Shown here: one piece after another, positions 8,113 to 31,728 of the stretch
Layout: each line of letters begins with the position of its first letter
Position numbering within the stretch: position 1 is the stretch's first letter
Source of the DNA: Pseudolabrys sp.
Lineage (GTDB): Bacteria; Pseudomonadota; Alphaproteobacteria; Rhizobiales; Xanthobacteraceae
Direction of reading: 5' to 3'
NCBI GenBank assembly: GCA_030651965.1
Contig: JAUSBQ010000023.1
Location: 1 to 33,296, forward strand
DNA length: 33,296 bases
Program-made: the position numbers and the translations under genes
Notes under the pieces: model-generated
Told to the model about the DNA's origin: nothing
The model's input: the letters and a program-made list of their open reading frames with translations, nothing else
Database searches by the model: none

Positions 8113-8576
8113 CGGTAGCCTTCGAAGACATTCAAACCGGCCAGGAGATTGCACCGCTGGTCAAGGGCCCGCTCGGCACGATGCATCTGATGCGCTGGTC
8201 GGCGGCGATGGAGAACTGGCATCGCATCCACTACGACCGCACCTTTGCCAAGGAGCACGACAAGCTTCCGGATATCCTGATCAATGGATCGCTGAAGCAG
8301 CAGTTCGTTCTCCAGTTCCTCAAGGATTGGGCCGGACGCGATGGCTGGGTCTGGAAAGTCAGCTTTCAATTCCGCGCGATGAACCTCGTCGACGAAACTC
8401 TCGACATCTGGGCGCGCGTCAAGGACAAGCGCGACATTGGGCCTTACGGCCTTGTCGAACTTGAAATCGGCATTCGCAACGCGGCCGGCCTGGAATCGAC
8501 GCCGGGCTCCGCGACCATCGCTCTGCCGCACCGAAACGGATCGCCCGTGCCCTATCCTTTCCGTCCATCTGCGTGA
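8109..8576 (+). CDS. MaoC-family hydratase, catalytic hot-dog subunit
   Basis: A 155-aa hot-dog protein carrying the active-site signature NWHRIHYD (Asn36, His38, His41, Asp43). The classic (R)-hydratase motif is G-D-x-N-P-x-H. The N-x-H-R-I-H-Y-D variant seen here resembles the HTD2 / mesaconyl-C4-CoA-hydratase-like branch as I remember it. That branch handles methyl-branched and dicarboxylic enoyl-CoAs, which would fit the CoA-transferases and HMG-CoA-lyase-like neighbour, though this is inference. It is translationally coupled (ATGA) to the upstream non-catalytic subunit and probably forms a heterodimer with it. The next gene starts 19 bases on. Family is secure; the direction of reaction and substrate are not. 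Confidence 0.85.
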   Translation: MTVAFEDIQTGQEIAPLVKGPLGTMHLMRWSAAMENWHRIHYDRTFAKEHDKLPDILINGSLKQQFVLQFLKDWAGRDGWVWKVSFQFRAMNLVDETLDIWARVKDKRDIGPYGLVELEIGIRNAAGLESTPGSATIALPHRNGSPVPYPFRPSA

Positions 8577-8594
8577 GACGTCCTGGAGACTTCA

Positions 8595-10930: not shown

Positions 10931-10938
10931 GAGTCAAA

Positions 10939-12189: not shown

Positions 12190-12201
12190 AGGCCACCCAT
12201 T

Positions 12202-13464
12202 ATGACGTTGAATTCAGCAGAGCCTGTGAAGAAAGCAGCGAGTCCTCCCGCGGCCGCAGGGCCGCTCGTCGGACTTCGCGTCATCGATGTCGGCATGCTG
12301 TTTGCCGGACCGCTTGTCTCTGCATTTCTCGCGGATCTCGGCGCCGACGTGATCAAGGTCGAACACATCGAAGGTGACGAAGTCCGCAAAATGGGCCCGA
12401 CCAAGGACGGCCATGCCCTATGGTGGCGCGTTATGGGTCGCAACAAGCGGCTGGTTTCCATCGATCTTGGCAAGCCCGAGGGAGCGGCTGTGCTGCGGCG
12501 TCTGATCGATACCGCGGACGCGATGGTCGAAAATTTCCGACCCGGACGTATGAAGAAATGGGGCCTCGACTACGATACTCTTCGCGTGACGAACCCCGGT
12601 CTGGTCATGCTGCACATCAGCGGCTGGGGCCAGACGGGGCCCTACAGCCAGCGTCCCGGATTGGGCACTTTGGCCGAGGCATTCAGCGGCTTCGCGCATG
12701 TCACCGGCGAAAAGGATGGTCCGCCGACATTGCCGGCCTATCCGGTCGCAGATACGGTCGCCGCGCTTACTGGTGCCTACAGCATGCTCGCCGCGCTTCT
12801 TAACCGAGAGCGCAATGGCGGCATTGGCGACGAAATCGATCTCGATCTCGTTCAGCCGATGATCCCGGTCCTCGGCTCCATGATCGTGCACTACGACCAA
12901 CTCGGCATCGTGCCGGTCCGAAAGGGCAACCGCTCGACCTGGACCGTCCCGCGCAACTCCTACCGCACAAAGGATGGCCGCTGGGTCGTGCTATCTGGCG
13001 CGGCGAACGAGCCGGTTATGCGCCTATTCCAGGCAATTGGACGTCCTGACCTGGCTGACGATCCATCGCTCGCGACCAACCAGCTCCGCGCCAAGCGCGT
13101 CGATGAGATCGATGGCATCATGGCCGAATGGATCGGCCGCCACACTCAGACCGAGGTTCTGGACGCCCTCGAAAAAGCTCAGGTAGTGGCGGGCCCGATC
13201 TGCGACGCTCAGCAACTGGTCGAGGATCCGCACATCACGGCGCGCGAATCCTTCCTGCGGATGCCTGATCCGGAGCTAGGTTCGATCCTCCTTCAAAACG
13301 TCGTGCCGCGCTTTACAAACAAACCCGGCCGTATTCGTTGGGCCGGAAAGCCGACCGTCGGTGCTGATACATATGACGTTCTGACGGAAGCGGGTTTCGA
13401 TGCGGAGGAAATCGAGAAGCTGGCGTCGGAGGGCGTGATCCGTACGGGGCAGGAGCAATCTTAG
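12202..13464 (+). CDS. CaiB/BaiF (family III) CoA-transferase, single domain
   Basis: A 420-aa single-module family III CoA-transferase. The N-terminal nucleotide-fold motif is VGLRVIDVGMLFAGP, followed by DLGADVIKVE. The catalytic aspartate is present (YPVADT, Asp184), and the small-domain motif is SYRTKDGRWVV. Unlike the two fused paralogues in this locus it has the usual length and an intact nucleophile. It would activate a further acid of the pathway, perhaps with succinyl-CoA or another pathway CoA ester as donor (inference). It begins 12 bases after the dehydrogenase stop, with GAGG about ten bases upstream of the ATG, and ends one base before the E1-like gene. It is firmly part of the same transcript by spacing. 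Confidence 0.9.
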   Translation: MTLNSAEPVKKAASPPAAAGPLVGLRVIDVGMLFAGPLVSAFLADLGADVIKVEHIEGDEVRKMGPTKDGHALWWRVMGRNKRLVSIDLGKPEGAAVLRRLIDTADAMVENFRPGRMKKWGLDYDTLRVTNPGLVMLHISGWGQTGPYSQRPGLGTLAEAFSGFAHVTGEKDGPPTLPAYPVADTVAALTGAYSMLAALLNRERNGGIGDEIDLDLVQPMIPVLGSMIVHYDQLGIVPVRKGNRSTWTVPRNSYRTKDGRWVVLSGAANEPVMRLFQAIGRPDLADDPSLATNQLRAKRVDEIDGIMAEWIGRHTQTEVLDALEKAQVVAGPICDAQQLVEDPHITARESFLRMPDPELGSILLQNVVPRFTNKPGRIRWAGKPTVGADTYDVLTEAGFDAEEIEKLASEGVIRTGQEQS

Positions 13465-13465
13465 C

Positions 13466-16165
13466 ATGAACGGCCTGGCTGCTACGAGCGTCGCGTTCCT
13501 GGAAGACCTATACCGCCGCTATGAAGTTAACCCGTCTTCGGTCGACTATAGCTGGCGCTGTGCCTTCGACCTCGCACGTGCCCTTTCGGAGAGCGAGCGC
13601 CCCGCCACGAACTACACGGGCGGAACGGCGGCCCTTGTCGCCGAGCTTGTTCGTCAGCGCGGTCATATCGCAGCTTCGTTAGACCCGCTTGGCAGGCAAC
13701 CCGAGGACGCCGCGGTATTTGAACGAACTCTCGCAATTGCCTCCGTAGCGCAGCATTCGGTCGATCGTTTGAAAACGCTCTATCGCTCGTCATTCACCGT
13801 CGAGACCGCGCATATTGACAATCCAGAGATGCGCAAATGGGTGCAGGAAGCATTCGAGGCCGAAGCCGCGCCACGCTCGAAAGTCGATCTGCTTCAGGCG
13901 CACAAGAAAATTGTGCAGGCCGACGAGTTTGAGGCCTTTCTCGGTCGCAAATATCCGACCAAGAAGCGTTTCGGCGCGGAAGGCGCGGAATCTCTATTTG
14001 CGCTGATGGACCGCCTCTTCCGGACGGCCGCCAAGAGTGGGATCGAGGAAGTCGTCGTCGGCCCGATGCATCGCGGCCGTACGAGCCTGATGGGCATCGT
14101 CTTTGGCATGCCGCTGGCGGAGCTGTTTGCCAAATTCAAAGGCGCCCATCCCTTCCCCGCTGATCCTCACAGTCCCGCGGACGTGCCGTACCATCTCGGG
14201 GCCGAAGCAACGCACGAGTTCGATGGCCACGAGCTCCGCGTGACCTTGTGCCCGAACCCATCGCATCTTGAGGCCGTCGATCCGATGGTCCTCGGCCGCG
14301 TGCGCGCCCGCCAGGATGTTCGCAAGAACGGCGAAGCCTCGCGCGTGCTCAGTTTTCTTTTTCATTCCGACGCGGCGGTTGTCGGTCAGGGCATCGTCGC
14401 GGAAACGCTCCAACTTGCCGGAATTCCTGGCTTCGAGACGCGCGGTACGGTCCACGTCGTCGTCAACAACCAAATCGGGTTTACGACCGAGCCATGGGAA
14501 GGCCGGACGTCGCGGCATTGCACCGGTCCCTTCAAGGCGATCGACTCGCTCATCATTCATGTCAACGGCGCCGATCCAGAGGCCTGTATCCGTGCCGCCG
14601 ATTTCGCCATCGCCTTCCGCCAGCGTTTCGAAAGCGACGTGGTTATCGACTTCATCTGCTATCGCCGTAACGGCCATAACGAGCTCGACGAGCCACGCTT
14701 CACGCAGCCGGTGCACTATGCGGCAATCGACGCCGAAACCACATATCGCCAGAGCTTCGAGAAGCGCCTGATTGCCGATGGCGTGCTGACTGCCGATGCC
14801 GCCGCCGCGGTTGCCGAAGATTATAAGCGCGAGTTGCAGATAGGCTACGACGCCGCCGCCACCTGGCGGCTCAACCGCAGCAGATTTCCCGGCGGGCAGT
14901 GGGAGCCTTTCCGGCCGAATTCCGAGCCGGTTGCCGAGCCGAGTACCGGCATTCCGCTGGAACGCCTCAACCGGCTGCTGCGCACGCTTGCGACCCCGCC
15001 CGATGACGTCGCGGTGCACCCGAAGGTCAAACGGCTGGTCGAGCAGCGCGCCGAAGCGGCCGAACGCGGCGTCCAATGGTCGCTCGGCGAAGGCCTCGCC
15101 TTCGCGTCGCTCGTCACCGAAGGTATCCCGATCCGTCTCAGCGGCCAAGACGCGGTACGCGGCACATTTTCCAGCCGGCATTTCGGCATCGTCGACGTCG
15201 AAAACGGAAGGCGCTTTTCAACTATAGCGCATATTGATCCGGCGCAGGCGTCATTCACTATCCTCAACAGTCCTCTCTCAGAGTACGGTGTGCTTGGGTT
15301 CGAGTACGGTTACAGCCTAGAGCGTCCCAACGCCTTGACGATCTGGGAGGCGCAATTCGGCGACTTCGCCAATGGCGCGCAGATTATTATTGACCAGTTC
15401 GTCGCAAGTGGCGAAGAAAAGTGGCTTCAGCCGTCAGGCCTCGTGCTGCTGCTACCGCACGGATTGGAGGGACAAGGACCGGAGCACTCTTCGGCTCGTC
15501 CCGAACGGTTCCTACAACTCGCGGCTCGCGACAATATCCAGATTGCCAATCCGTCGACTCCGGCGAACTACTTCCATTTGCTGCGGCGGCAACTTATGCG
15601 CCGGACGCGCAAACCGCTGATCGTGCTGACACCCAAGACACTGCTCCGGCTGCCCGCGGCGGTGTCGCCGCTTGACGACTTCGGACCCAACAAGCGTTTC
15701 ACGCCGACGCTGACGTCCGGCGCTCCCGGCGCGCGGCGTATTCTGCTCTGCACGGGCAAGATCGCTTATGAACTCGAGCGCGAGCGCTCCGCGCAAGGCG
15801 AAGACCGCACTCAAATTGTACGGCTCGAGATGCTCTACCCGCTGCCTTCCGCCGAGCTGTCGGCGATCCTTGCCGCCTCGCCTAACGCTGAACTCGCGCT
15901 GGTCCAGGAAGAACCCGAGAACATGGGCATATGGTCGTGGATACGTCCTCGTATCGAAGATCTCGCACTGGCCGCAGGCCATCGCAATCCGAAGCTGCGG
16001 TATGTCGGGCGTCCGGAATCGCCGTCCCCTGCCGGCAGCTTTCATGGCGATCACGATGCCGATCAAGCGGCAATCGTAAAGACCGCATTCAGCGCGGCTT
16101 TCGACAGAAAACGCAACCAGCCGACTGTACCCGCTGCGCACACGATCGGCGGCACGCATGGATGA
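13466..16165 (+). CDS. 2-Oxoglutarate-dehydrogenase-E1-like thiamine-diphosphate enzyme
   Basis: An 899-aa relative of 2-oxoglutarate dehydrogenase E1 (usually about 930-990 aa). An E2-binding-type N-terminal segment is kept (FLEDLYRRYEVNPSSVDYSW). The two histidines that contact 2-oxoglutarate in E. coli E1 (His260, His298) align with those in MHRGR near residue 201 and DVPYHLG near 241. The thiamine-diphosphate region reads HSDAAVVGQG (near 299; E. coli has HGDAA) and NNQIGF. YRRNGHNELDEPR and EEPENMG are also conserved. The HRGRLN motif is changed to HRGRTS. No E2 or E3 gene is nearby. It may borrow the central complex, or act alone as a 2-oxo-acid decarboxylase or carboligase. AGGAG lies ten bases upstream of the ATG. 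A dedicated role in this pathway is inferred from position. Confidence 0.88.
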   Translation: MNGLAATSVAFLEDLYRRYEVNPSSVDYSWRCAFDLARALSESERPATNYTGGTAALVAELVRQRGHIAASLDPLGRQPEDAAVFERTLAIASVAQHSVDRLKTLYRSSFTVETAHIDNPEMRKWVQEAFEAEAAPRSKVDLLQAHKKIVQADEFEAFLGRKYPTKKRFGAEGAESLFALMDRLFRTAAKSGIEEVVVGPMHRGRTSLMGIVFGMPLAELFAKFKGAHPFPADPHSPADVPYHLGAEATHEFDGHELRVTLCPNPSHLEAVDPMVLGRVRARQDVRKNGEASRVLSFLFHSDAAVVGQGIVAETLQLAGIPGFETRGTVHVVVNNQIGFTTEPWEGRTSRHCTGPFKAIDSLIIHVNGADPEACIRAADFAIAFRQRFESDVVIDFICYRRNGHNELDEPRFTQPVHYAAIDAETTYRQSFEKRLIADGVLTADAAAAVAEDYKRELQIGYDAAATWRLNRSRFPGGQWEPFRPNSEPVAEPSTGIPLERLNRLLRTLATPPDDVAVHPKVKRLVEQRAEAAERGVQWSLGEGLAFASLVTEGIPIRLSGQDAVRGTFSSRHFGIVDVENGRRFSTIAHIDPAQASFTILNSPLSEYGVLGFEYGYSLERPNALTIWEAQFGDFANGAQIIIDQFVASGEEKWLQPSGLVLLLPHGLEGQGPEHSSARPERFLQLAARDNIQIANPSTPANYFHLLRRQLMRRTRKPLIVLTPKTLLRLPAAVSPLDDFGPNKRFTPTLTSGAPGARRILLCTGKIAYELERERSAQGEDRTQIVRLEMLYPLPSAELSAILAASPNAELALVQEEPENMGIWSWIRPRIEDLALAAGHRNPKLRYVGRPESPSPAGSFHGDHDADQAAIVKTAFSAAFDRKRNQPTVPAAHTIGGTHG

Positions 16166-16244
16166 ACGCACGCCCGCATGACGATTCGATCCTGTCGTGT
16201 CCATCGGACGCTACAGCACCCTAAGAATTCAAGGGAGAAACACA

Positions 16245-16901
16245 ATGACAAACGATGAACGCGAGTTGTTGGCTCGCTGCGTCGAGATCGGAACGAGCAC
16301 CTGGTCAGACGCGATGGATGCGTGCGGCATTGATGGTGTGATACGGGGGTTGACGCGACGCAGTGGACAGGGCCGTTTTGCCGGTTATGCGGTGACAGCG
16401 CGGGAAACTGCGGGCGTCCGAGGGCAGTTTCAGCGCAATGCCTTCGGAGTTGGCGAGATCATCGGTGCCGTTGGACCCGGCCAGGTCCTGATGGTCGATA
16501 TGGCCGGTGCCGACATTTCAACCTTCGGCGGCCTCGCCGCCCTTGCTACCGCAAAACGCGGCGCCGTGGCTGTTGTAATTGATGGCGGGTGCCGCGACAT
16601 CGACGAAATGATGGTGTCCGGGCTTTGGCTTGCCAGCCGACATGTCACGCCGACTACCGGAAAGACCCGACTCAAGCTGGAAGGCATCAACCAGCCGGTT
16701 AAACTCGGCGGCATTGCCGTCGCTCCCGGCGACATAGTTGTCGGCGACGACACCGGCATCGTCGTCATCCCACGCAAAGAAGCCGAAAGGGTCATGGCGG
16801 AGGCCGACAGAATGCTGGTGATAGACCATCAGATGGAGCAAGCGATCGGTAGCGGAGCATCGTTCAAGGATGCCGCATCCGACGCGAACTATATCCGCTG
16901 A
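16245..16901 (+). CDS. RraA-like protein (HMG/CHA aldolase family)
   Basis: A 218-aa protein of the RraA / 4-hydroxy-4-methyl-2-oxoglutarate aldolase fold. The signature VIDGGCRDIDEM (about residues 108-119) supplies the Arg-Asp pair used for metal and substrate binding in the class II pyruvate aldolases. A GDDTGIVVIP segment follows. Members include pyruvate-releasing aldolases, oxaloacetate decarboxylases and the RNase E inhibitor RraA. The catabolic context favours an aldolase or decarboxylase role. The ATG at 16245 has AGGGAG seven bases upstream; an earlier in-frame GTG lacks support. The gap to the upstream gene is 79 bases and to etfB 34 bases, so it probably belongs to the same operon. 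Confidence 0.8.
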   Translation: MTNDERELLARCVEIGTSTWSDAMDACGIDGVIRGLTRRSGQGRFAGYAVTARETAGVRGQFQRNAFGVGEIIGAVGPGQVLMVDMAGADISTFGGLAALATAKRGAVAVVIDGGCRDIDEMMVSGLWLASRHVTPTTGKTRLKLEGINQPVKLGGIAVAPGDIVVGDDTGIVVIPRKEAERVMAEADRMLVIDHQMEQAIGSGASFKDAASDANYIR

Positions 16902-16935
16902 ACGCTTTTCCCCGCTATCGGCATAAGGACGGGAT

Positions 16936-17685
16936 ATGAAAATTCTGGTGCCCGTGAAACGGGTCGTCGATTACAACGTCAAAATCCGTGTCAAACCGGA
17001 CGGTTCCGGCGTCGAACTCGCCAACATCAAGATGTCTATGAACCCCTTCGACGAAATCGCCGTCGAAGAGGCGATCCGTCTGAAGGAAGCCGGCAAGGCG
17101 ACCGAAATCGTCGTGGTGTCGATCGGACCGGCGCAGGCCTCCGAGACCATCCGCACCGCGCTCGCCATGGGCGCCGACCGCGGCATCCTGGTGAAGGCCG
17201 AAGGCGCGGTGGAACCGCTGGCGGTGGCCAAGATCCTCAAGGGCATCGTCGAAGCCGAACAGCCCGGCCTTGTCATTCTCGGCAAGCAGGCGATCGACGA
17301 CGACAGCAACCAGACCGGCCAGATGCTCGCAGCATTGCTCGGCTGGGCGCAGGGCACCTTCGCCTCGAAGATCGCCATCGACGGCGACAGCGTCTCGGTG
17401 ACGCGCGAAGTCGACGGCGGCCTGCAGACGGTGAAACTGAAGGCGCCGGTGATCGTCACCACCGATCTGCGCCTCAACGAACCGCGTTACGCATCGCTGC
17501 CGAACATCATGAAGGCGAAGAAGAAGCCGATCGAGGAAAAGACCGCGGCCGACTACGGCGTCGACACCAAGCCGCGCCTCGAGATCGTTAAGACCAGCGA
17601 GCCGGCCGGCCGCAAATCCGGCGTCAAGGTCGGCTCGGTCGCCGAGCTGGTCGCCAAGCTCAAAGACGAAGCGGGAGTTATCTGA
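16936..17685 (+). CDS. etfB: Electron transfer flavoprotein beta subunit
   Basis: The 249-aa beta subunit of the soluble ETF heterodimer, which collects electrons from acyl-CoA dehydrogenases and passes them to ETF:quinone oxidoreductase. Diagnostic segments are [17 protein letters not shown] at the N-terminus, the AMP/nucleotide region [15 protein letters not shown], and the dehydrogenase-recognition loop [14 protein letters not shown] followed by lysines. The start ATG has AAGGAC upstream. It is two bases from etfA and inside the catabolic operon, so a dedicated ETF for the two acyl-CoA dehydrogenases is likely. By eye its codons are much more uniformly GC-ending than those of its neighbours, which suggests a duplicated housekeeping copy or high expression. 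Confidence 0.97.
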
Positions 17686-17687
17686 TC

Positions 17688-18641
17688 ATGGCCACGCTTC
17701 TTCTCGCCGAGCACGACAACAAGTCGCTCAAGGACGCCACCGCCAAGGCGCTCACCGCTGCCAAGGCTCTGGGCGGCGACGTCCACATCCTGGTCGCCGG
17801 CAAGGATGCCAAGGGTGCGGCCGATGCTGCCGCCAAGCTCGACGGCGCCGGCAAGGTGCTGCTGGCCGATGGCGCTGCTTATGAACACCAGCTCGCCGAG
17901 CCGCTCGCGGCGCTGATCGTGTCGCTCGCCGGTTCCTATGACGCCATCGTTTCGGCCGCGACCAGCAACGGCAAGAACGTGATGACGCGCGTCGCCGCGC
18001 TGCTCGACGTCATGCAGATTTCCGAAATCACCAAGGTGATTTCGCCCGACACGTTCGAGCGGCCGATCTATGCCGGCAACGCCATCCAGACCGTGAAGTC
18101 GACGGACGCCAAGAAGGTCATCACCGTGCGCACCTCGACCTTCCAGGCGGCGGGCCAAAGAACAGATGCCGGCTCGGCCACGGTCGAGAACGCCACGGCG
18201 GCGGCCGATCCGGCGCTGTCATCTTTCGTCGGGGAGGAACTGTCGAAGTCCGACCGGCCGGAACTGACCTCCGCCAAGATCATCATCTCGGGCGGCCGCG
18301 CCATGCAGAACCGCGAGAACTTCACCAAATACATCGAGCCGGTGGCCGACAAGTTAGGGGCCGCCATGGGCGCCTCGCGCGCCGCGGTCGACGCCGGTTA
18401 TGCGCCGAACGACTGGCAGGTCGGCCAGACCGGCAAGGTGGTCGCGCCCGACCTGTACATCGCGGTCGGCATTTCCGGCGCCATCCAGCATCTCGCCGGC
18501 ATGAAGGACCCCAAGGTGATCGTCGCGATCAACAAGGACGAGGAAGCGCCGATCTTCGCGGTCGCCGACTACGGTCTGGTCGCCGATCTTTACACGGCGC
18601 TGCCGGAACTGGCCGAAGAGCTTGGCAAGATTGGACGTTAA
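17688..18641 (+). CDS. etfA: Electron transfer flavoprotein alpha subunit
   Basis: The 317-aa FAD-carrying alpha subunit of ETF. The C-terminal FAD-binding domain shows [15 protein letters not shown], then [20 protein letters not shown] and [10 protein letters not shown], all typical of EtfA. The N-terminal domain starts [17 protein letters not shown]. Only two bases separate it from etfB, so the subunits are co-translated. Codon choice is as strongly GC-ending as in etfB and differs from flanking genes. The following gene starts 69 bases downstream, without an obvious terminator, so transcription may continue. Confidence 0.97.
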
Positions 18642-18710
18642 AGTTCTCGTTTTGTCGCACAGGTCTGAAGCCTTTCGAAAGTGCGCCGAAGACATCTAGG
18701 GAGCGTATCT

Positions 18711-20081
18711 ATGTCGTCTACGCCCAACGCCGACGCCGCCACCGCCTTCATCACCGGCACCGCCGACAGGCGCCTCCCGGATGCGGTGCTCAACGCCGCG
18801 CGCATGTGTCTGGTTGACTGGTTCGGTGTTGCCATCGGCGCTCGCGATGAAGGCGCTGCCCAGGTGGTCGGTCAAGTCGGCCAGAGTTGGGGGCACACCG
18901 GCGGCGCGCAAGTGCTGTTCGGCGCCAAGGCCGATCCGGCAACTGCCGCACTTATCAATGGCACAATGGCGCATTGCCTGGACTTTGACGACACCCATGT
19001 CGGTTCTCTCGCGCACCTGAGTGGGCCAACCTGGGCGGCGACACTGGCTGTCGGTGCCGCGCTGAACTCCCAACCCGCCGACATGCTCCAAGCGTTCGTC
19101 ACTGGTTTTGAAATCGGTGCGCGGATTGGCGGCGGAGGCTTCGGCGAGGCATTAAACACGCGCACTTTGCATTCGACAGGATTTTGTGGCTGCTTCGCGG
19201 CCGCGGCCGCGGCAAGCGTGCTCCTGCGGCTCGATACTGCCCAGGTCGGGAACGCACTCGGTGCCGCTGCGACGCAGGCCGCCGGCCTGACCGGCTCATT
19301 CGGGACAATGAGCAAACCGTTTCACGCTGGGAAAGCCGCACTCAATGGGGTGCTTGCCGCGCAACTCGCCAATGCAGGCTTTACCGCTGCGGACAATTTG
19401 ATAGAGGCCGAGAATGGCTTGGCCACAGCGCTGATCCAAGATGGATCGCAGACCATCTCCGCAATGACATTTGCGGCGGGGGACTGGGAAATTCTGCGTA
19501 ATACTTTCAAGCCATACGCATCTTGCCTGCTTACCCATCCGGTGATCGATTCCGCCCGCAAGCTACTGCCTCAGATCAGGGAACGGGCGATTAAAGCCGT
19601 CACGATCAATGTACATCCCATGGCGGTCCAGCTTGCTGGTAAGTCAAACCCGCAAAGCCCCCTCGAGGGAAAATTCAGTACTGCCTACTGCGCAGCGCTG
19701 GCGTTAAGTGGTCACGTTGTGGCAGCGACCGACTTCTCTGCGGATCGATTGCACACCCCGCGATTGCGAGACCTCATCACTCGGGTAAATCTGATTGCGA
19801 CACCGGAGATGGAAAAAACCGCCGCGTCGATGACCGTCACCCTCACCGACGGAAGCCTACTCAAGGCCGATACTCCCTTGGCCTTGGGAAACCCTGGCAA
19901 CCCAATGCAATGGGAAGACATGGAACAGAAATTTATTGGTCTCGTCGAGCCAGTTCTCGGCCGCCGGGCTGCTCCGACCTATCTCTGCTTACGCCGCTTT
20001 GAGGCGAGCGGCGATCTTGACAACGTCTTCGCCGCACTCGCCGCGAGTTGCGCCGAGGCGAAAGAGTTGATCACGCACTGA
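18711..20081 (+). CDS. MmgE/PrpD family protein, second paralogue
   Basis: A 456-aa MmgE/PrpD superfamily protein, clearly related to but diverged from the one at 9563-10930. Family motifs are LDFDDT near residue 90, SLAHLSGPTWAATLA, LHSTGFCGCFAAAAA, FGTMSKPFHAGKAA and YASCLLTHPVID. The ATG at 18711 follows AGGGAG with seven bases of spacing; a GTG further upstream in frame is less likely. Reactions in the superfamily are dehydration, decarboxylation or epimerisation of small carboxylates. Two different members in one operon suggest two distinct steps or stereoisomers (inference). The LLM oxidoreductase starts 59 bases downstream. Confidence 0.85.
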   Translation: MSSTPNADAATAFITGTADRRLPDAVLNAARMCLVDWFGVAIGARDEGAAQVVGQVGQSWGHTGGAQVLFGAKADPATAALINGTMAHCLDFDDTHVGSLAHLSGPTWAATLAVGAALNSQPADMLQAFVTGFEIGARIGGGGFGEALNTRTLHSTGFCGCFAAAAAASVLLRLDTAQVGNALGAAATQAAGLTGSFGTMSKPFHAGKAALNGVLAAQLANAGFTAADNLIEAENGLATALIQDGSQTISAMTFAAGDWEILRNTFKPYASCLLTHPVIDSARKLLPQIRERAIKAVTINVHPMAVQLAGKSNPQSPLEGKFSTAYCAALALSGHVVAATDFSADRLHTPRLRDLITRVNLIATPEMEKTAASMTVTLTDGSLLKADTPLALGNPGNPMQWEDMEQKFIGLVEPVLGRRAAPTYLCLRRFEASGDLDNVFAALAASCAEAKELITH

Positions 20082-20140: not shown

Positions 20141-21172
20141 ATGAAATTTACCTTGCTCATCGGTGCAGAACACCGCCCAACGGACTCCATGGTGACGCGT
20201 CTTGCCGAACATGTGGAGCAGGTACGGCTCGCTCGAGAAGTAGGGTTCGATAGCATCGTGATCGGAAGCCACTTGTCCTATGGTACGGCCGCTTGGTTCC
20301 CACCGATCGAAACGTTGATGCGCCTCTCCGCTGCCGCCGATGGCATGTCACTCGGGACCTGCATGCTTGTGCTCCCGCTATATCACCCCGTTGAGGTCGC
20401 CGAACAATTTGCATTGCTCGATGCCGCTTGCGGCGGGCGCGCCGTGATGGGGGTGTCGCCGGGCTGGACACAAAGCGAGTTCGATCTTGTCGGGCTCGAT
20501 TTTTCGAAGCGGATTGGCCGCTTTACAGAGGCAGTAAGCCTTATCAAGCGGCTTTATACCGAGAACGAGGTCACCTTCGAGGGCAAGCACTTCCGCGTCA
20601 ATAACGCAACACTCGCGCTGAAACCAACACAGAAGCCGCGTCCGCCGATGTGGCTTGGCGGCAGCGTGGAAGCCGCGGTTAAGCGCGTTGCGTCTATCGC
20701 CGAAACCGACCTTGGCGACACTTGGTGCGCATCGTCGCACCTGAAGACCGACGTGATCGTCCAGCAAGCGGCTGTGTTCAAAGAAACGCTGAAGGATCTC
20801 GGCAAATCCATGCCGAAGGATTTTCCGGTGCTGCGGAATGTCGTCGTCGCCAACGACCGTGCTACAGCAATCCGCGAAGTCGGCCCGGCCATCGCCGAGA
20901 GCTATAAGATATTCGGCGACTGGGGTCTGTTCAAAGAAGTGGTCGGCGACGCGAAGCCACACCCGGATTTTGAGGAACTGATCAACGGTCGCTTTATCAT
21001 CGGTTCACCCGAACAGGCGGCAGAAGATATAACGCAACTCGCCACTGTCACCGGCGCTACGCGAATGGTGTGCCGCAGCCAGTGGGTGGGTATGGATCAT
21101 AAGCATGTCATGCGCACGATCGAATTGGTCGGCACAAAGGTTGCGCCGCTTGTCCGCAAGGCTCTGACGTAA
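20141..21172 (+). CDS. LLM-family flavin/F420-dependent oxidoreductase
   Basis: A 343-aa luciferase-like monooxygenase superfamily protein, a single TIM barrel with RLAREVGFDSIVIGSHLSYG near the start, the core GGRAVMGVSPGW, and PPMWLGGS. Members use FMN or F420 to oxidise alcohols, reduce double bonds or ring systems, or oxygenate substrates. Cofactor choice cannot be read from the motifs alone. F420 is the best guess because the next six kilobases encode F420 synthesis and recycling. The ATG at 20141 has AGGGAG nine bases upstream; an in-frame opening from 20048 is not supported. It lies 59 bases after the MmgE/PrpD gene and 105 before fbiC, bridging the catabolic genes and the cofactor genes. 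Confidence 0.85.
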   Translation: MKFTLLIGAEHRPTDSMVTRLAEHVEQVRLAREVGFDSIVIGSHLSYGTAAWFPPIETLMRLSAAADGMSLGTCMLVLPLYHPVEVAEQFALLDAACGGRAVMGVSPGWTQSEFDLVGLDFSKRIGRFTEAVSLIKRLYTENEVTFEGKHFRVNNATLALKPTQKPRPPMWLGGSVEAAVKRVASIAETDLGDTWCASSHLKTDVIVQQAAVFKETLKDLGKSMPKDFPVLRNVVVANDRATAIREVGPAIAESYKIFGDWGLFKEVVGDAKPHPDFEELINGRFIIGSPEQAAEDITQLATVTGATRMVCRSQWVGMDHKHVMRTIELVGTKVAPLVRKALT

Positions 21173-21188
21173 GGCTCCCAAACTGATC

Positions 21189-21210
21189 AATGTATCGGAT
21201 AAGATGCATT
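21189..21210. promoter_or_regulatory. Interrupted palindrome upstream of fbiC
   Basis: AATGTATC-GGATAA-GATGCATT is a 22-base inverted repeat with 7 of 8 arm positions matching, 68 bases before the fbiC start. It is the only conspicuous symmetry in the 105-base gap and could be an operator for a separate F420 promoter. Nothing else supports this. Confidence 0.25.
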
Positions 21211-21277
21211 GCGCTGTCTAGAGGTATTGTTCGGTCAAGTCAGTACGCCGTTTCGCTCAAGGTAAGGAAAGAACGCT

Positions 21278-23692
21278 GTGCACACATCACTTCGAATTGG
21301 CACGGGCACTCCGAGAGTGGAAGATATCCGGCGCTGGGCTGAGTTGCCGCTTGAGGAACTGATGGCCGAGGCAGCGGCCACCCGCGACGCAGCTCACGGT
21401 AGTGTCGTTTCTTATTCGCCAAAAGTGTTCATTCCGCTCACTCGGTTGTGCCGCGACACCTGTCGGTACTGTACCTTTGTGCGCGGGCCGGGGGCGGTCG
21501 GTGAGGCCTATCTGTCACCCGACGAAGTGTTGGCAATTGCGCGAGCAGGCGCTGAGACGGGCTGCCACGAAGCACTGTTCACACTCGGTGATAAGCCGGA
21601 GCTAAAATACGACAGTGCGCGCCGCGCGCTCGCCCGCCTTGGTTACTCAACGACGGTAGAATATCTCGCCGCGATGTGTGCACTTGTGCTGGAAAGCACG
21701 GGTCTTCTGCCTCACGTCAATGCCGGCGTAATGACCGAGGACGAAATCGCCACGCTGCGCCGTGTATCGGTTTCTCAAGGGCTGATGCTCGAATCGACAG
21801 CCGCGCGGCTTTGTGAGCGCGGTGGTCCGCACTTTGGCTCTCCCGACAAAGCACCGGCAGTGCGACTCGCTATGATCGAGGCCGCAGGACGCCTAGCTGT
21901 GCCCTTTACCACCGGCATTCTGATCGGCATCGGCGAATCGGTCGACGAGCGCATCGACGCGCTGTATGCCATTGCGGACACGCAACGCCGCTACGGCCAT
22001 ATCCAAGAAGTCATCATCCAGAATTTTTGCGCCAAGGAACGCACGGCTATGGCGACGGCGCCCGAGCCGAGCGGGGCCGATCTGCTTCGCACCGTGGCGC
22101 TAGCGCGGCTGATATTTGTAGCTGATATGAATATTCAGGCTCCGCCGAATCTGAGCCCGGGGTTGCATGGGCAATTGATCGCTGCCGGGATTAACGATTG
22201 GGGCGGCATCTCGCCTGTCACCCCAGATCACGTCAATCCCGAAGCGCCGTGGCCGCAGATCGCGCAGCTTGCACAACAAACTGCCGACTCGGGCAAATGC
22301 CTGACGCCGCGACTCGCGATCTATCCAAGCTACGCACTTGCGCCACAGCATTGGCTTGACGTAAGCCTGCATACGCCCGTGCTGCGCGCGATAGATGCAC
22401 ACGGATTTGCGCGCGAGGATCCCTGGGCGCCGGGCAAGACGCCCAAGCAGGTAAAAGCACTCAAACCTGTCAGCTACGCGAGACAAGCAGGCACCGATAA
22501 GATTGGCAATTTGCTACGTCGTGCCGAAGCCGGAGTGAGGCTTGAAGAAGCCGACATTGTCACGCTTTTTGGCGCCCGCGGCGGCGACTTCGACGCTATA
22601 TGCGCCGCCGGCGATGCATTGCGGCGAAATGTCAACGGCGACACCGTGACCTATGTTGTCAACCGCAACATCAACTATACCAATGTGTGCTATTATAGCT
22701 GCCGCTTCTGCGCCTTCTCGAAAGGAAAGCTAGGCGAAACGTTGCGCGGCCCGGCCTACGACATCAGTGACGACGAGATCATGCGACGGGTGCGAGAAGC
22801 GTGGGATCGCGGTGCCACGGAAGTGTGCATGCAAGGTGGTATACATCCACGCTACACAGGACAAACCTACCTCGATATTGTCGCTGCCGTTAAGACGGCG
22901 GCGCCCGATATCCACGTTCACGCCTTCTCACCGCTCGAAGTATATCACGGTGCGGAGACGCTCGACGTTTCAGTCGATGCCTTTCTGATGCAACTTCGCG
23001 AGGCAGGTCTTTCTAGTCTTCCCGGAACCGCGGCAGAAATTCTGGACGATGACGTGCGGCGAGAGCTTTGCCCCGACAAGCTCTCAACCGTGCAGTGGCT
23101 GTCTGTGATCGAAGCCGCACACCGGCAGGGCCTGCGCACTACCGCTACGATCATGTTCGGGCACATTGATCGGCCAGTCAATTGGGCGCGGCACCTCCTG
23201 CATATTCGCGATTTGCAGGCCCGTACAGGTGGCTTCACCGAATTTGTGCCGCTACCGTTTGTGCATATGGAAGCGCCGATGTATCTGCGCGGGCGAGCAC
23301 GGAAAGGTCCGAGCATGCGCGAAACGATCCTAATGCACGCGGTCGCCCGACTGGTCTTGCACCCGCTTATTCCTAATATCCAGGTCTCTTGGGTCAAGCT
23401 TGGCACGGACGGTGTGCGGTCTTGTTTGGCCGCGGGGGCTAATGATCTCGGCGGCACATTGATGAATGAAAGTATTTCGCGCGCCGCCGGTTCCGAGCAC
23501 GGTCAAGAACTCCCGCCTGAAGAAATGGATGCCTTGATCACGTCTTTCAACCGTATTCCGCGTCAGCGAACTACACTTTATGCGGCCGCACCGGCTCACC
23601 GGAATTCGGCATCGTATGGAGCAGCACCGCTCGAGCCGGCTGTCCTTAACACCCGACACCGCGCTAATGTCGCAGCTTCAGGAACAGCATGA
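21278..23692 (+). CDS. fbiC: FO synthase (fused CofG-CofH radical SAM enzyme)
   Basis: FbiC makes the deazaflavin chromophore FO from tyrosine and 5-amino-6-ribitylaminouracil, using two radical-SAM modules. At 804 aa it contains both. The CofG-type half has its iron-sulfur motif at Cys58, Cys62, Cys65 (CRDTCRYC), and the CofH-type half has its motif at Cys471, Cys475, Cys478 (CYYSCRFC). The fused form is typical of bacteria, whereas archaea often encode separate proteins. The start is GTG at 21278 with AAGGAAA seven bases upstream. The stop overlaps npdG (ATGA). All six iron-sulfur cysteines are present. By eye, codon usage is more mixed than in etfBA, which fits acquisition of the F420 locus as a unit. 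Confidence 0.96.
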   Translation: MHTSLRIGTGTPRVEDIRRWAELPLEELMAEAAATRDAAHGSVVSYSPKVFIPLTRLCRDTCRYCTFVRGPGAVGEAYLSPDEVLAIARAGAETGCHEALFTLGDKPELKYDSARRALARLGYSTTVEYLAAMCALVLESTGLLPHVNAGVMTEDEIATLRRVSVSQGLMLESTAARLCERGGPHFGSPDKAPAVRLAMIEAAGRLAVPFTTGILIGIGESVDERIDALYAIADTQRRYGHIQEVIIQNFCAKERTAMATAPEPSGADLLRTVALARLIFVADMNIQAPPNLSPGLHGQLIAAGINDWGGISPVTPDHVNPEAPWPQIAQLAQQTADSGKCLTPRLAIYPSYALAPQHWLDVSLHTPVLRAIDAHGFAREDPWAPGKTPKQVKALKPVSYARQAGTDKIGNLLRRAEAGVRLEEADIVTLFGARGGDFDAICAAGDALRRNVNGDTVTYVVNRNINYTNVCYYSCRFCAFSKGKLGETLRGPAYDISDDEIMRRVREAWDRGATEVCMQGGIHPRYTGQTYLDIVAAVKTAAPDIHVHAFSPLEVYHGAETLDVSVDAFLMQLREAGLSSLPGTAAEILDDDVRRELCPDKLSTVQWLSVIEAAHRQGLRTTATIMFGHIDRPVNWARHLLHIRDLQARTGGFTEFVPLPFVHMEAPMYLRGRARKGPSMRETILMHAVARLVLHPLIPNIQVSWVKLGTDGVRSCLAAGANDLGGTLMNESISRAAGSEHGQELPPEEMDALITSFNRIPRQRTTLYAAAPAHRNSASYGAAPLEPAVLNTRHRANVAASGTA

Positions 23693-24390
23693 CAAAAAAT
23701 GTAGCACATCAACCACTACCACGGATCGCCGTTCTCGGCGGAACCGGAAAGGAAGGCTCCGGGCTCGCGCTTCGCTGGGCTCACGCCGGCTATCAGATTG
23801 TCATCGGATCGCGTGATCCCGAGCGCGCCAGGGTCACAGCGGCCCAAATCAATAATTCGACCGGCGCGAGACGCGCCTTCGGCGATACTATTCTTGCGGC
23901 TGCGCATGGCGCCGATATTGCCGTTCTCGCCGTACCCTATTCTGCGCAACTCAGCGCGCTTGCCGACGTCAAAGACGCGCTCCAAGGCAAAATTCTTGTC
24001 GATGTCACAGTACCGCTAGTGCCACCTCAGGTAGGGCGCGTGCAATTACCAGTCGGCGGTTCAGCCGTCGTCGTCGCTCAACAGCTCCTCGGCGATTCTG
24101 TACGTGTCGTCTCAGCATTCCAAAACGTCTCTGCCGAGCACCTTAATCATCTCGGTACGTCAATTGACTGCGACGTGCTCGTCTGCGGTGACGATCGCGC
24201 GGCGCGCGAGGCTGTAATTGCGCTTGCACAGGCGGCGGGCATGCGTGCCTATCATGCCGGGCCTCTCGCCAATTCGGCGGCGGCCGAAGCGCTGACGTCG
24301 ATCCTCGTCACGATCAACCGTCATTATAAGATCAAGCACTCCGGCATCCGTATTACAGGAATTCCGGACAGTACGGGCCTACAGGCGTGA
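23689..24390 (+). CDS. npdG: NADPH-dependent F420 reductase
   Basis: A 233-aa F420:NADP oxidoreductase (Fno/NpdG), which transfers hydride between NADPH and F420. The N-terminal Rossmann motif LGGTGKEGSG (about residues 16-25) is followed by SRDPERA, the usual NADP 2'-phosphate binding segment. AFQNVSAEHL and GPLANSAAAEALTS match the F420-binding part of the family. It is coupled to fbiC by an ATGA overlap and to cofE by a GTGA overlap. Its presence suggests that F420H2 is used reductively, or that F420H2 made by the LLM enzyme is recycled to NADPH. The symbol fno would be equally acceptable. Confidence 0.93.
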   Translation: MTKNVAHQPLPRIAVLGGTGKEGSGLALRWAHAGYQIVIGSRDPERARVTAAQINNSTGARRAFGDTILAAAHGADIAVLAVPYSAQLSALADVKDALQGKILVDVTVPLVPPQVGRVQLPVGGSAVVVAQQLLGDSVRVVSAFQNVSAEHLNHLGTSIDCDVLVCGDDRAAREAVIALAQAAGMRAYHAGPLANSAAAEALTSILVTINRHYKIKHSGIRITGIPDSTGLQA

Positions 24391-25169
24391 CGGCACACGC
24401 GTCATCGACTTCAACCGAGCTGCGTCTGATCGCGCTCGCTAGTATCCCGCAAGTTCGCGCGGGAGACGACATCGCTTCGCTGACTATCGCCTCGCTGCAG
24501 CAATCCCGATTGTCACTGCAACACGGTGACGTGCTGGTTATCGCCCAGAAGATCGTTTCGAAGGCCGAAGGCCGCATGGTCAATCTTGCGAACATCACGC
24601 CTTCGCCGCGCGCACTTGAATTAGCGTCGCACGTAAACAAGAATCCACGGATTGTGGAGTTGATCCTTCGGGAATCGGTTGAAGTCGTGCGTTACCGTAA
24701 GGACGTACTGATTGTTGCGCATCGTTGTGGCTATGTCCTCGCCAATGCCGGCATAGACGCTTCAAATGTCTGCGGCGACGGCGGATCTGTACTGTTGCTG
24801 CCCGAAGATTCTAATCGCTCCTGCCTCGAGTTGCGCGCGCGTCTTGCCAAGCAGACAGGCGTCGCACCCGGAGTTATCATCAATGACAGCCTCGGTCGGG
24901 CATGGCGCAATGGCACTGTGGGTGCTGCGCTCGGTTCAGCTGGCATTCCAGCGCTGCTCAATCTGCGCGGCAGGCTCGATCTTTTCGGCCGCGAGCTTGT
25001 CTCAACCGAGGTTGGAGTCGCCGATGAGATCGCTGCGGCCGCCTCGCTGCTGATGGGGCAGGCAAACGAAGGACGGCCGGTGATTCTAGTGAGAGGGTTG
25101 AACTTGCCAGAGAGCGGCGGAAGCGCCGCAGATCTGATCCGGCCGCGCGACCTCGACCTGTTCCGCTAA
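24387..25169 (+). CDS. cofE: Coenzyme F420-0:L-glutamate ligase
   Basis: A 260-aa single-domain CofE that adds gamma-linked glutamates to F420-0. Characteristic segments are VLVIAQKIVSKAEGR, GYVLANAGID, and INDSLGRAWRNGTVGAALG. The GTG start at 24387 overlaps the npdG stop. In mycobacterial FbiB this domain is fused to a nitroreductase-like domain that reduces dehydro-F420-0. No such domain is fused here or found elsewhere in the window. A 253-base gap separates this gene from cofD. Confidence 0.93.
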   Translation: MTAHASSTSTELRLIALASIPQVRAGDDIASLTIASLQQSRLSLQHGDVLVIAQKIVSKAEGRMVNLANITPSPRALELASHVNKNPRIVELILRESVEVVRYRKDVLIVAHRCGYVLANAGIDASNVCGDGGSVLLLPEDSNRSCLELRARLAKQTGVAPGVIINDSLGRAWRNGTVGAALGSAGIPALLNLRGRLDLFGRELVSTEVGVADEIAAAASLLMGQANEGRPVILVRGLNLPESGGSAADLIRPRDLDLFR

Positions 25170-25198
25170 AGGCGTATGGTTTAAATGTTTGCCACAAA

Positions 25199-25426
25199 AT
25201 GCCGATGGAACATTTGATGACCCCACAGAGCATTGCATTCACTTTACAAAAACTTCCGGCTCCAGCGCGTGGGGTCAGCGCTTTCAGGATGTGTGCGCCG
25301 CTGACTTATCCCAATACCGTTCGGGCGGGACTAGCTGAGAATTGGCAGCCTTCGCTGGTAAATCTCTTGTACGGTGTCGGCCGATGGCGCGGACAGTGGC
25401 CAGTCACAGGAATTCTTAAGCAATGA
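25199..25426 (+). CDS. Small unrecognised open reading frame between cofE and cofD
   Basis: This 75-codon frame starts at an ATG at 25199, and its stop overlaps the cofD start as ATGA, the coupling style used elsewhere in this locus. The predicted peptide contains PAPARGVSAFRMCAP and ends GRWRGQWPVTGILKQ; I recognise no family. No good ribosome-binding site precedes it. It may be a real small protein, a degraded remnant, or a chance frame in an otherwise empty 253-base gap. The overlap is the only argument in its favour. Confidence 0.25.
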   Translation: MPMEHLMTPQSIAFTLQKLPAPARGVSAFRMCAPLTYPNTVRAGLAENWQPSLVNLLYGVGRWRGQWPVTGILKQ

Positions 25427-26382
25427 ACGCTGCTCGTCAGGTGCTTGCGTTGGCCGGCGGCGTAGGCGGCGGCAAGCTTGCGCGCGGACTTGCCGCGGTG
25501 CTGTTGCCAGACAACCTTACTCTCGTCGTCAACACGGCTGACGATTTTGTGCATCTCGGTTTGCACATATCGCCTGATATAGACTCGGTTCTTTATGCGC
25601 TCGCCGACTTGAACGATTCCGTACAGGGCTGGGGGCTCGCTGGCGATACCGATCATGTCATGGACGCGCTTGCGCGGCTCGGCGGCGACACTTGGTTTAA
25701 GCTTCGCGACCGCGACCTGGCGACGCATCTGTTGCGTACACAGAAAATTTCTGAAGGCTATTCGCTATCGCAAGTGACGCAGCTTATCGCGGATCGCCTT
25801 GGCGTCGGTCACCGTGTCGCGCCGATGACCGATGCGCCGGTGAGTAGCGTCGTTGATACCGAGCGGGGATATCTCGCCTTTCAGGACTATTTTGTGCGGC
25901 AACGCTGCGCCCCAATATTTTATGGCGTGCGGTTCGAAGGAGCGGCCCTTGCGGAGCCAAGCGCCGCTTTCGTCGCCGCGCTCGAATGTGCCGACGCTAT
26001 CGTTATCTGCCCCTCCAATCCATTTCTTAGCATAGACCCGATCCTCGCACTTGTTGGTGTGCGCGCTCATCTAGAATCGTCGAGAGCGCCGGTCATTGCG
26101 GTGTCACCGATTGTTGGTGGCAATGCCGTAAAGGGGCCGCTTGCGAAAATGATGGGCGAGCGGAAGATTCCGCCTACGTCTCTGAGCATCGCGCGACATT
26201 ATAGTAGCATGGTGCAAGGCTGGCTAATTGATGCGGCGGATCGCGACGAGGCCGCGGCTATAGAGAGCCTCGGCTGCGCGGTTCGAGTCACCCGAACACT
26301 GATGACGACGCCCGAAGACAAATCGCAGTTGGCCGAAGCCGCTCTAGACTTCGCTGCAGATCTTGCACGGCAGAATTCTTAG
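25423..26382 (+). CDS. cofD: 2-Phospho-L-lactate transferase (CofD/FbiA)
   Basis: A 319-aa transferase that joins the activated phospho-C3 acid to FO, giving F420-0 or its analogue. It shows ALAGGVGGGKLARGLA at the N-terminus, VVNTADDFVHLGLHISPDID, the family block GWGLAGDTDHVM, and ICPSNPFLSIDPIL. These are the usual CofD/FbiA landmarks, and the length is normal. The ATG at 25423 overlaps the stop of a small open frame. The stop TAG shares its last base with the GTG of cofC. Whether the natural donor derives from phospholactate, phosphoenolpyruvate or 3-phosphoglycerate cannot be read from it. Confidence 0.95.
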   Translation: MNAARQVLALAGGVGGGKLARGLAAVLLPDNLTLVVNTADDFVHLGLHISPDIDSVLYALADLNDSVQGWGLAGDTDHVMDALARLGGDTWFKLRDRDLATHLLRTQKISEGYSLSQVTQLIADRLGVGHRVAPMTDAPVSSVVDTERGYLAFQDYFVRQRCAPIFYGVRFEGAALAEPSAAFVAALECADAIVICPSNPFLSIDPILALVGVRAHLESSRAPVIAVSPIVGGNAVKGPLAKMMGERKIPPTSLSIARHYSSMVQGWLIDAADRDEAAAIESLGCAVRVTRTLMTTPEDKSQLAEAALDFAADLARQNS

Positions 26383-26996
26383 TGATGGCATGCTGGGTCA
26401 TTATTCCTGTTAAGTCAGTCGCCGGCGGCAAGTCGCGTCTTGCCGGTATTCTCAGCGATATCGAACGGTATGCGTTAAACAGCTCGTTAATCCTTCATGT
26501 GCTGAAAACCGGGATCGCGGTCGTTGGCGCGTCTCACACGCTAGCCGTAAGTGCGGACCCGGAGGCACTTGCACTCGCGATTGGTCAAGGCGCGAATGCC
26601 CTGACCGAAGTGCCCGCGGAGGGACTTAACGGCGCGCTATCGCAGGCATGTCGCAGAGCGAAAGAACGCGGCGCGGATACAATAATGGTGCTTCCCTGCG
26701 ATCTTCCGTTTCTGATACCGGATGACGTAAAAGCATTACGAGAGGCGGCCGCGGGCGGGAAGTCAGTCGTCCTCGCCCCTGATAGGGCGGAAGCGGGAAC
26801 CAATGCGCTGGTAGTGCCCGCGACGATGGACCATGTGTTCCGGTTTGGACAAGGAAGCTTTATTGCGCACCAGAATTTATTTCTATGTGGTGGGTTGAAC
26901 TGTCGAATACTACGTCGGCCGTCGCTCGCCTTCGACCTCGATACGCCCGACGATTATGCCTTGTTCCAAGAGAGCTTTGCCCCGGGTAAAGACTGA
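26382..26996 (+). CDS. cofC: Phospho-C3-acid guanylyltransferase (CofC/FbiD)
   Basis: CofC activates the phospho-C3 acid (2-phospholactate, phosphoenolpyruvate or 3-phosphoglycerate, depending on the organism) with GTP for CofD. The 204-aa protein has the nucleotidyltransferase signature VIIPVKSVAGGKSRLAG, then MVLPCDLPFL and the substrate-side motif AGTNALVVP. Two adjacent starts are possible: GTG at 26382, sharing a base with the cofD stop, or ATG at 26385. No clear ribosome-binding site separates them, so coupling to cofD is likely. It is the last recognisable F420 gene; no terminator is evident after it. Confidence 0.92.
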   Translation: MMACWVIIPVKSVAGGKSRLAGILSDIERYALNSSLILHVLKTGIAVVGASHTLAVSADPEALALAIGQGANALTEVPAEGLNGALSQACRRAKERGADTIMVLPCDLPFLIPDDVKALREAAAGGKSVVLAPDRAEAGTNALVVPATMDHVFRFGQGSFIAHQNLFLCGGLNCRILRRPSLAFDLDTPDDYALFQESFAPGKD

Positions 26997-30145: not shown

Positions 30146-30168
30146 GCTCAAAACGAAAGGAGGCTACG

Positions 30169-31143: not shown

Positions 31144-31203
31144 GTGTTTAAGGTGCAGTCGTTTCGTCGGCTTTCAACACGAAGACGCCCTTAGCGCGGT
31201 TTA

Positions 31204-31239
31204 GCCAGCGCAACAGGCCGTACGGTTTTCTGCGCTGGC
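31204..31239. repeat. Nine-base inverted repeat upstream of the cold-shock gene
   Basis: GCCAGCGCA (31204-31212) and TGCGCTGGC (31231-31239) are perfectly complementary, separated by 18 bases. The position, 88 bases before the cold-shock start, allows a role in its 5' leader or as the end of the upstream operon. No T-run follows. Confidence 0.4.
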
Positions 31240-31326
31240 GCCAGCCTATTTCCGCTCTATTAGCGGTATGCAGTGCTTGTCCTCTCTCGTACAATGGTCT
31301 TGCTGGTAGAAACTGGGAGAGTGATT

Positions 31327-31530: not shown

Positions 31531-31554
31531 AGCTACGCCGCTTCGAACATTGAG

Positions 31555-31724: not shown

Positions 31725-31728
31725 AATC

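Follow-up and report, generated by a model that had tools for sequence, protein, structure and literature searches.

An F420 biosynthesis cassette with a relic of fbiE and a putatively F420-dependent luciferase-like oxidoreductase, located behind a catabolic operon in a metagenome-derived contig

The stretch of DNA considered here, referred to as the window, is 33,296 bases long and corresponds to the whole of contig C254 of a 4.66 Mb metagenome-assembled genome (MAG) comprising 468 contigs and 90% complete. As this is a MAG contig, its host genus is uncertain. The window contains a nearly complete set of genes for biosynthesis of the cofactor F420, arranged as fbiC-npdG-cofE-[fbiE]-cofD-cofC, where fbiE is present only as a relic. 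The explanation we favor, with moderate confidence, is that this cassette, probably of horizontal origin, lies behind a catabolic operon and has the luciferase-like oxidoreductase (LLM) encoded in front of it as its likeliest client. Two features merit follow-up, namely, the relic of fbiE and the F420-restricted subfamily to which the LLM belongs. The stronger proposal, that the operon needs F420, fails when conservation of gene context is considered, whereas the part concerning the LLM survives. The locus comprises the following features, given with the evidence for each assignment:

20141..21172, plus strand: LLM, a luciferase-like (PF00296) oxidoreductase, likely an F420H2-dependent hydride transferase (PF00296, FbiC co-occurrence, structure model)
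21278..23692, plus strand: fbiC, fused CofG-CofH FO synthase; alternative start 21317 (NF006687, two CX3CX2C stretches)
23689..24390, plus strand: npdG, NADPH:F420 reductase (TIGR01915)
24387..25169, plus strand: cofE, F420-0 gamma-glutamyl ligase, no nitroreductase domain (TIGR01916)
25199..25426, plus strand: apparent relic of an FbiE-type nitroreductase, a 75-codon open frame corresponding to the C-terminal part only (tblastn, alignment)
25423..26382, plus strand: cofD (TIGR01819)
26382..26996, plus strand: cofC, guanylyltransferase with residues of the 2-phospholactate (2-PL)/phosphoenolpyruvate (PEP) type; alternative start 26385 (TIGR03552)

An earlier sequence-only reading had placed the LLM gene, fbiC, npdG, cofE, cofD and cofC at positions 20141 to 26996 of one strand, closely following a catabolic operon, and this was borne out, with the run extending from the ATG at 20141 to the end of cofC at 26996 and the LLM gene starting 59 bases from the last gene of an operon of 14.7 kb (5372-20081). 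The genes are also adjacent, as had been noted, but they do not mostly overlap, since 4-base overlaps occur only at the fbiC/npdG and npdG/cofE junctions, while cofE and cofD are 253 bases apart. The spacing of cofD and cofC is 2 bases, or a 1-base overlap if a GTG start is used, and that of the LLM gene and fbiC is 105-144 bases, according to the choice of fbiC start.

The five F420 genes are real, as their products match curated models with scores far beyond chance, namely, FbiC (NF006687, 1139.8 bits; cut-off 1018), NpdG (TIGR01915, 207 bits; cut-off 149.8), CofE (TIGR01916, 274.2 bits; cut-off 180.65), CofD (TIGR01819, 284.6 bits; cut-off 257.45) and CofC (TIGR03552, 122.5 bits; cut-off 105). 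The stretches CRDTCRYC and CYYSCRFC are readable in the FbiC translation and correspond to CX3CX2C, which we take to be the radical-SAM motif, expected twice in this protein. Relative to the corresponding loci L135 and L141 (L and G numbers are our labels for locus stretches and genomes, respectively), the ratio of non-synonymous to synonymous substitution (dN/dS) across fbiC-cofC is 0.13-0.33, a rough value because dS is high (1.4-2.1), and these genes are under purifying selection.

The 253-base gap between cofE and cofD holds, as judged by alignment, a truncated relic of an FbiE-type dehydro-F420 reductase gene, reported here for the first time; in the literature searched, FbiE is named only in a review (PMC8498797). 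By tblastn, the gap matches the C-terminal part of the L135 nitroreductase with 42.4 bits, as compared to 24.3 bits for the best of 1000 dinucleotide-preserving shuffles of the gap. A chance match was rejected, given that seven of nine nitroreductase-like queries outscored all 1000 shuffles, the distant L132 and L189 being the two that did not. Among FbiE-less loci of type A, a gene order defined below, the search for relics covered that of the window alone, the others being L101, L127, L141 and L144. The relic frame opens at 25199; its stop codon, at 25426, and the start of cofD share the sequence ATGA, much as the intact nitroreductase gene and cofD of L135 share 4 bases. Apart from a few short deletions, the relic lacks approximately the first 123 residues of its relatives, including the HNRQPWR stretch common to these, and on its own matches no Pfam or NCBIfam model. 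Assembly error was also considered; because some 123 residues are missing and the gap spans 253 bases, a small sequencing error would not account for the relic. No intact dehydro-F420-0 reductase was found at the locus or in a search of the 90% complete MAG, where the best score to TIGR03553 was 19.3 bits (cut-off 249.55); the three other nitroreductases of this genome that were examined better fit BluB, PRK10828 and PRK10765.

The type of F420 made was considered on the basis of CofC residues. As described in PMC8764529, S/T at position 162 (S162 in Mrhiz-CofC) is diagnostic for CofC of the 3-phosphoglycerate (3PG) type. The window CofC instead has G at position 162, together with L at 91 and 95, such that a 2-PL/PEP-type enzyme is predicted and production of 3PG-F420 was ruled out as a candidate. 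In an alignment of 77 CofC matches, G occupies site 162 in 76, the remaining one being a fragment with a gap there. The best solved relative of the window protein is the 3PG enzyme of Mycetohabitans (7p97; 79.8 bits versus 41 for FbiD 6bwg). Were PEP the substrate, dehydro-F420-0 would arise and a reductase, which the locus has lost, would be wanted. With the local reductase reduced to a relic, the cell would need 2-PL, would rely on a reductase encoded elsewhere or would keep its cofactor in the dehydro form; as type B clusters (see below) also lack a nearby reductase, serious consideration is due to use of 2-PL and to a reductase gene located away from the cluster.

With the PEP route that relies on FbiB in mycobacteria or FbiE in Thermomicrobium, as presented in PMC8498797 and PMC8764529, the window shares a fused FbiC, homologues of CofC, CofD and CofE and 2-PL/PEP-type CofC residues, and close relatives of its locus keep an FbiE-type nitroreductase, fused to CofE in L074; it differs in that its own nitroreductase persists only as a C-terminal relic, no protein of the genome matching TIGR03553 over the cut-off. 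With the 3PG-F420 system of Mycetohabitans (PMC8764529), the window shares the absence of a dehydro-F420 reductase from the locus and the closest solved CofC, but not the S/T at position 162, having G there and L at 91 and 95. In that work, loss of the dehydro-F420 reductase is supposed to be the background of the switch to 3PG-F420; here, such loss is seen without any such switch in CofC.

F420 genes are not rare among these bacteria. At E 1e-100 or better, the FbiC model is matched in 21 of the 199 order genomes searched, 11 of these matches exceeding the cut-off, and in 93 of the 391 family genomes searched (86 exceeding it), a count that includes the genome of the window. In the genus of the MAG, 8 genomes have an FbiC match and at least 20 do not. 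Loci were surveyed in 84 of the 93 family genomes (among the matches listed, the window's own included), in 7 of 20 others of the order and in 5 genomes behind named LLM loci, with genes outside the window called using our own codon-score script. Gene order was counted in the 61 of 106 stretches with fbiC, cofC, cofD and cofE, the remaining 45 being left out. While other clusters of the alphaproteobacterial type contain the same enzymes as does the window, most (42/61) are ordered cofE-cofD-cofC-fbiC (type B), and lack an FbiE-like gene, whereas the window, with fbiC first, is one of 12 stretches ordered fbiC-cofE-cofD-cofC (type A); fbiC is inverted in another six, and one (L102) is arranged otherwise. 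When at least 100 bits to a nitroreductase profile were demanded of an FbiE-like protein, thus not counting L132 (92) and L189 (59), such a gene was present in 7 of the 12 type A stretches and in L102. The gene lies between cofE and cofD in L135, L159 and L191 and behind cofC in L152, L157 and L158, while in L074, which belongs to the window's own genus, the nitroreductase is fused to CofE (6912-8321), as in FbiB (NF009810, 348.9 bits over 304). The four FbiE-like proteins scanned score 120-144 bits against TIGR03553, the FbiB C-terminal domain, below the cut-off of 249.55, the best nitroreductase-type model of each being either TIGR03553 itself or NF009810, a related model for FbiB. No type B stretch (0/42, among L075-L190) carries an FbiE-like gene at this threshold, yet their CofC proteins, where the diagnostic site is covered, look to be of the 2-PL/PEP type. 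In L108, L111, L120 and most other loci of genus g3, the fetched stretch (up to 20 kb) contains fbiC but none of cofC, cofD and cofE; in this genus, either the pathway is scattered or FO alone is made.

In an FbiC tree (99 rows, quick method), the window protein groups with those of L135, L141 and L148 of genus g111 (SH-aLRT 100), to the exclusion of FbiC proteins from its own genus. These loci share the gene order of the window and 70-72% identity in FbiC, 71-72% in NpdG, 68-71% in CofE, 63-64% in CofD and 46-49% in CofC, with cofC being the most diverged F420 gene (43-50% relative to L135 and L141); the L148 stretch ends after npdG, at a contig end. GC content at third codon positions is 0.58-0.64 in the F420 genes versus 0.67-0.86 in the operon. 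The cassette was thus probably acquired horizontally. The genes upstream of fbiC in L135 (encoding an HpaB-type hydroxylase, an arylmalonate decarboxylase-like protein and DUF1003) and L141 (an EAL/GGDEF protein) are unrelated to those of the window, and neither neighborhood contains an LLM gene or the operon, a lone 33% CoA-transferase match in L141 aside.

The LLM matches PF00296 with 158.1 bits (cut-off 27.9). Of the NCBIfam models, it fits TIGR03619, an F420 subfamily, best, and it is alone among the seven PF00296 proteins of the genome in having an F420 subfamily as best model. LLM homologues (E 1e-40 or better) were detected in 18 of 385 genomes of the class besides its own, and each of the 18 has FbiC over the cut-off, as opposed to 6 of 62 LLM-negative controls, these being the first such genomes listed and hence non-random (Fisher 3.8e-13). 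When only genomes of at least 2.8 Mb were counted, by hand, the figures were 18/18 and 4/27. An LLM gene lies between cofC and fbiC in G672 and G786 and beside cofC-fbiC in G687 and G796. A scan of named genomes yielded 12 LLM relatives, five at 56-57% identity, all encoded in MAGs whose labels read Alphaproteobacteria, Rhodospirillaceae or Proteobacteria, consistent with the sequence-only description of an apparent alphaproteobacterium. An FbiC model match was found in 8 of 11 searchable named-locus genomes (4 over the cut-off), including four with an LLM at 56-57%; the genomes of L068, L072 and L073, which encode more distant LLM relatives (24-36%), had no FbiC match. Within the family, the only LLM orthologue is that of G263 (68%), a genome with FbiC and the source of the nearest LLM relative, around which no operon was found in the 59 kb examined. 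In all, LLM orthologues of 56-68% coincide with an FbiC match in six of six searchable genomes (G263, G583, G584, G585, G586 and G955), the match in G585 being incomplete and below the cut-off. Weighing this distribution above fold, we regard a link between the LLM and F420 as supported. As noted in PMC5300114, which also names the confounders, such co-occurrence had pointed to F420 as cofactor of mycobacterial LLMs.

Together, these assignments would yield the following route. FbiC would make FO, to which CofC and CofD would attach a side chain derived from 2-PL or PEP, CofE would add the glutamate tail, NpdG would charge F420 using NADPH, and the LLM would hand the hydride to an organic substrate. 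The npd cluster of Rhodococcus offers a parallel, with an LLM-type enzyme near NpdG and a catabolic operon, as in the window. Among luciferase-like hydride transferase (LLHT) reductases that depend on F420H2, an example is the enzyme of Rhodococcus that acts on picrate (PMC8498797). The proposed system resembles these in the LLM and in NADPH as likely hydride source, family membership of the window LLM being putative, and differs in that F420 biosynthesis in the window shares the same gene run.

Several points weigh against this explanation. The LLM scores 121.3 bits against TIGR03619, below the cut-off of 166.9, and another LLM of the genome (L267) reaches 128.6 bits on this model, though its best model is of the flavin mononucleotide (FMN) type. 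The client search covered PF00296 proteins, leaving out FDOR-type F420 enzymes. For an AlphaFold model of the LLM (pLDDT 91.6, pTM 0.91), the best solved Foldseek matches are FMN enzymes (2i7g, E 2.6e-23, TM 0.86), with the F420-dependent Mer ranking 13 (5.0e-19, TM 0.77). The co-occurrence of LLM and FbiC can also stem from a shared niche. Absence of an FbiE-like gene, as in the type B stretches, is compatible with normal F420. Composition and the tree are the only grounds for horizontal origin, the contig may be misbinned, and the nearest kin of FbiC, the LLM and the operon CoA-transferase CoAT2 (the genes searched) were never found in g1, the genus assigned to the MAG.

The operon and the genes that precede it are as follows:

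5372..20081, plus strand: catabolic operon, 12 genes (Pfam/NCBIfam matches)
817..2964, plus strand: second fused CoA-transferase, behind an acyl-CoA dehydrogenase truncated by the contig start (2-820) (conserved in L213)
4095..4901, minus strand: GntR/FCD regulator separating both operon halves (71% identity in L213)
2995-3966: zinc-type dehydrogenase

The operon encodes a fused CoA-transferase, a FAS1-like dehydratase, a 155-residue protein (8109-8576) with no Pfam match, a 3-hydroxy-3-methylglutaryl (HMG)-CoA lyase-like protein (NF004283, 278.4 bits over 246), MmgE/PrpD, an acyl-CoA dehydrogenase, a CoA-transferase, a 2-oxoglutarate dehydrogenase E1-like protein (13466-16165; NF006914, 975.7 bits over 764), an RraA-like protein, the beta and alpha subunits of electron transfer flavoprotein and a second MmgE/PrpD. 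The E1-like protein is a paralogue, since another E1 gene of the genome scores higher (1399.6 bits); no E2 gene was seen among the window ORFs scanned, and the protein may act on another 2-oxo acid. The proteins encoded at 5372-7591 (739 residues) and 817-2964 (715 residues) are family III CoA-transferases with repeated domain-model matches, apparently two-copy fusions.

CoAT2 homologues (E 1e-100 or better) occur in 10 of 391 genomes of the family, that of the window (G000) included, with FbiC in G000, G247, G304 and G374 and none in the other six. The nearest operon, that of G232 (L213), presents the same gene order (acyl-CoA dehydrogenase 89%, lyase 87%, CoA-transferases 58 and 67%, regulator 71% and E1-like protein 74% identical), with no LLM or F420 genes in the stretch, and belongs to a genome that is FbiC-negative by profile search at 89% completeness. 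In G232, the E1 gene is followed by one for an Old Yellow Enzyme (OYE, PF00724). Of the 11 operon stretches fetched, 8 (among them L213, that of the query) encode OYE relatives of at least 50% identity, versus 1 of 105 F420-locus stretches, such that OYE goes with this operon class. Such an enzyme is encoded in the fetched stretch of seven of the nine other family genomes with this CoA-transferase. Among CoAT2 genomes, OYE is present in 6/6 FbiC-negative and 1/4 FbiC-positive ones (Fisher 0.033, a post hoc test with the query G232 counted). No OYE is encoded on the window contig.

The sequence-only reading had proposed that one catabolic step needs F420 and that comparison of fbiC neighborhoods would show whether the LLM and CoA-transferase genes travel with it. 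The tie between the LLM and F420 held, given the 18/18 versus 6/62 distribution and the LLM genes adjoining cofC/fbiC in four genomes; that between the operon and F420 did not, as the nearest operon lies in the FbiC-negative G232 and the CoA-transferase operon does not travel with the F420 genes. With the F420 clusters of L135 and L141 also lacking the LLM and operon, a conserved operon-F420 unit was rejected. A link in the genome of the window alone is nonetheless possible, given the common strand, short gaps, NpdG and a sister-operon reductase not seen here. In that case, the genes may be co-transcribed and the LLM would perform one reduction of a pathway whose operon occurs without F420 in relatives. 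That the F420 genes and LLM functionally belong to the operon, one step of which needs F420H2, appears unlikely, if still worth entertaining; in a sharper version, the LLM replaces OYE in reducing a double bond made by MmgE/PrpD. Since sister operons have OYE and the contig does not, an LLM supplied with F420H2 by NpdG may carry out that reduction, and the OYE distribution described above suggests such a takeover. Also in favor are the 59-base operon-LLM gap on one strand, the absence of terminator-like sites between operon and LLM gene and between LLM gene and fbiC (such sites being at chance level in the scan overall), the location of OYE between CoAT2 and the second MmgE/PrpD in L221-L223, the latter gene preceding the LLM in the window, and L067, where an LLM homologue is followed, some 670 bases on, by MmgE/PrpD. 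On the other hand, the contig begins inside an acyl-CoA dehydrogenase gene upstream of which L213 has a second, partial OYE, so that OYE may lie off-contig; the zinc-type dehydrogenase (2995-3966) could be the reductase; L067 aside, no LLM stretch has MmgE/PrpD within 6 kb (most of these stretches extending over some 4 kb); the operons found in G247 and G304 differ considerably from that of the window; and the operon/LLM junction was seen once.

A role of the LLM as FMN-dependent monooxygenase in the operon, with the F420 genes as chance neighbors, as the structural matches and the sub-threshold TIGR03619 score might imply, is improbable, since LLM and FbiC co-occur as described, LLM genes adjoin cofC/fbiC elsewhere and LLM orthologues with examined surroundings sit outside such an operon. 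More improbable still is a locus in decay, fbiE having gone first with the others following, and the cofactor not made; the relic, the divergence of cofC (43-50%) and phage-like genes downstream would fit, whereas the five other genes have open frames, exceed the model thresholds and give dN/dS values far under 1. Equally hard to credit is that dehydro-F420 itself serves as cofactor, with the reductase lost, a PEP-type CofC kept, NpdG charging the product and the LLM doing the work of OYE in the operon; if true, one gene run would combine a variant cofactor with the replacement of an enzyme by a non-orthologous one. A horizontally acquired cassette with the LLM as client remains the explanation we favor.

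According to the 2021 review PMC8498797, no F420H2-dependent reductase or F420-reducing dehydrogenase from F420-making bacteria other than actinobacteria had yet been studied, and the reason for which Proteobacteria produce F420 is posed there as a question. The F420-restricted LLM subfamily, found 18 of 18 times in genomes with FbiC, offers a concrete candidate client, together with a possible reaction type.

In the scan of the window, 7 promoter-like sites were counted versus 3.8 +- 1.8 expected, and 10 terminator-like sites versus 10.2 +- 3.2 expected, the latter at chance level. Downstream of the F420 locus, the region spanning 28254-32960 contains phage-like genes encoding a ParB-like/DNA methylase protein (phrog_498, 421.5 bits), two DUF5681 proteins (phrog_26239) and a GIY-YIG/DUF4357 protein (phrog_12629, 258.6 bits).

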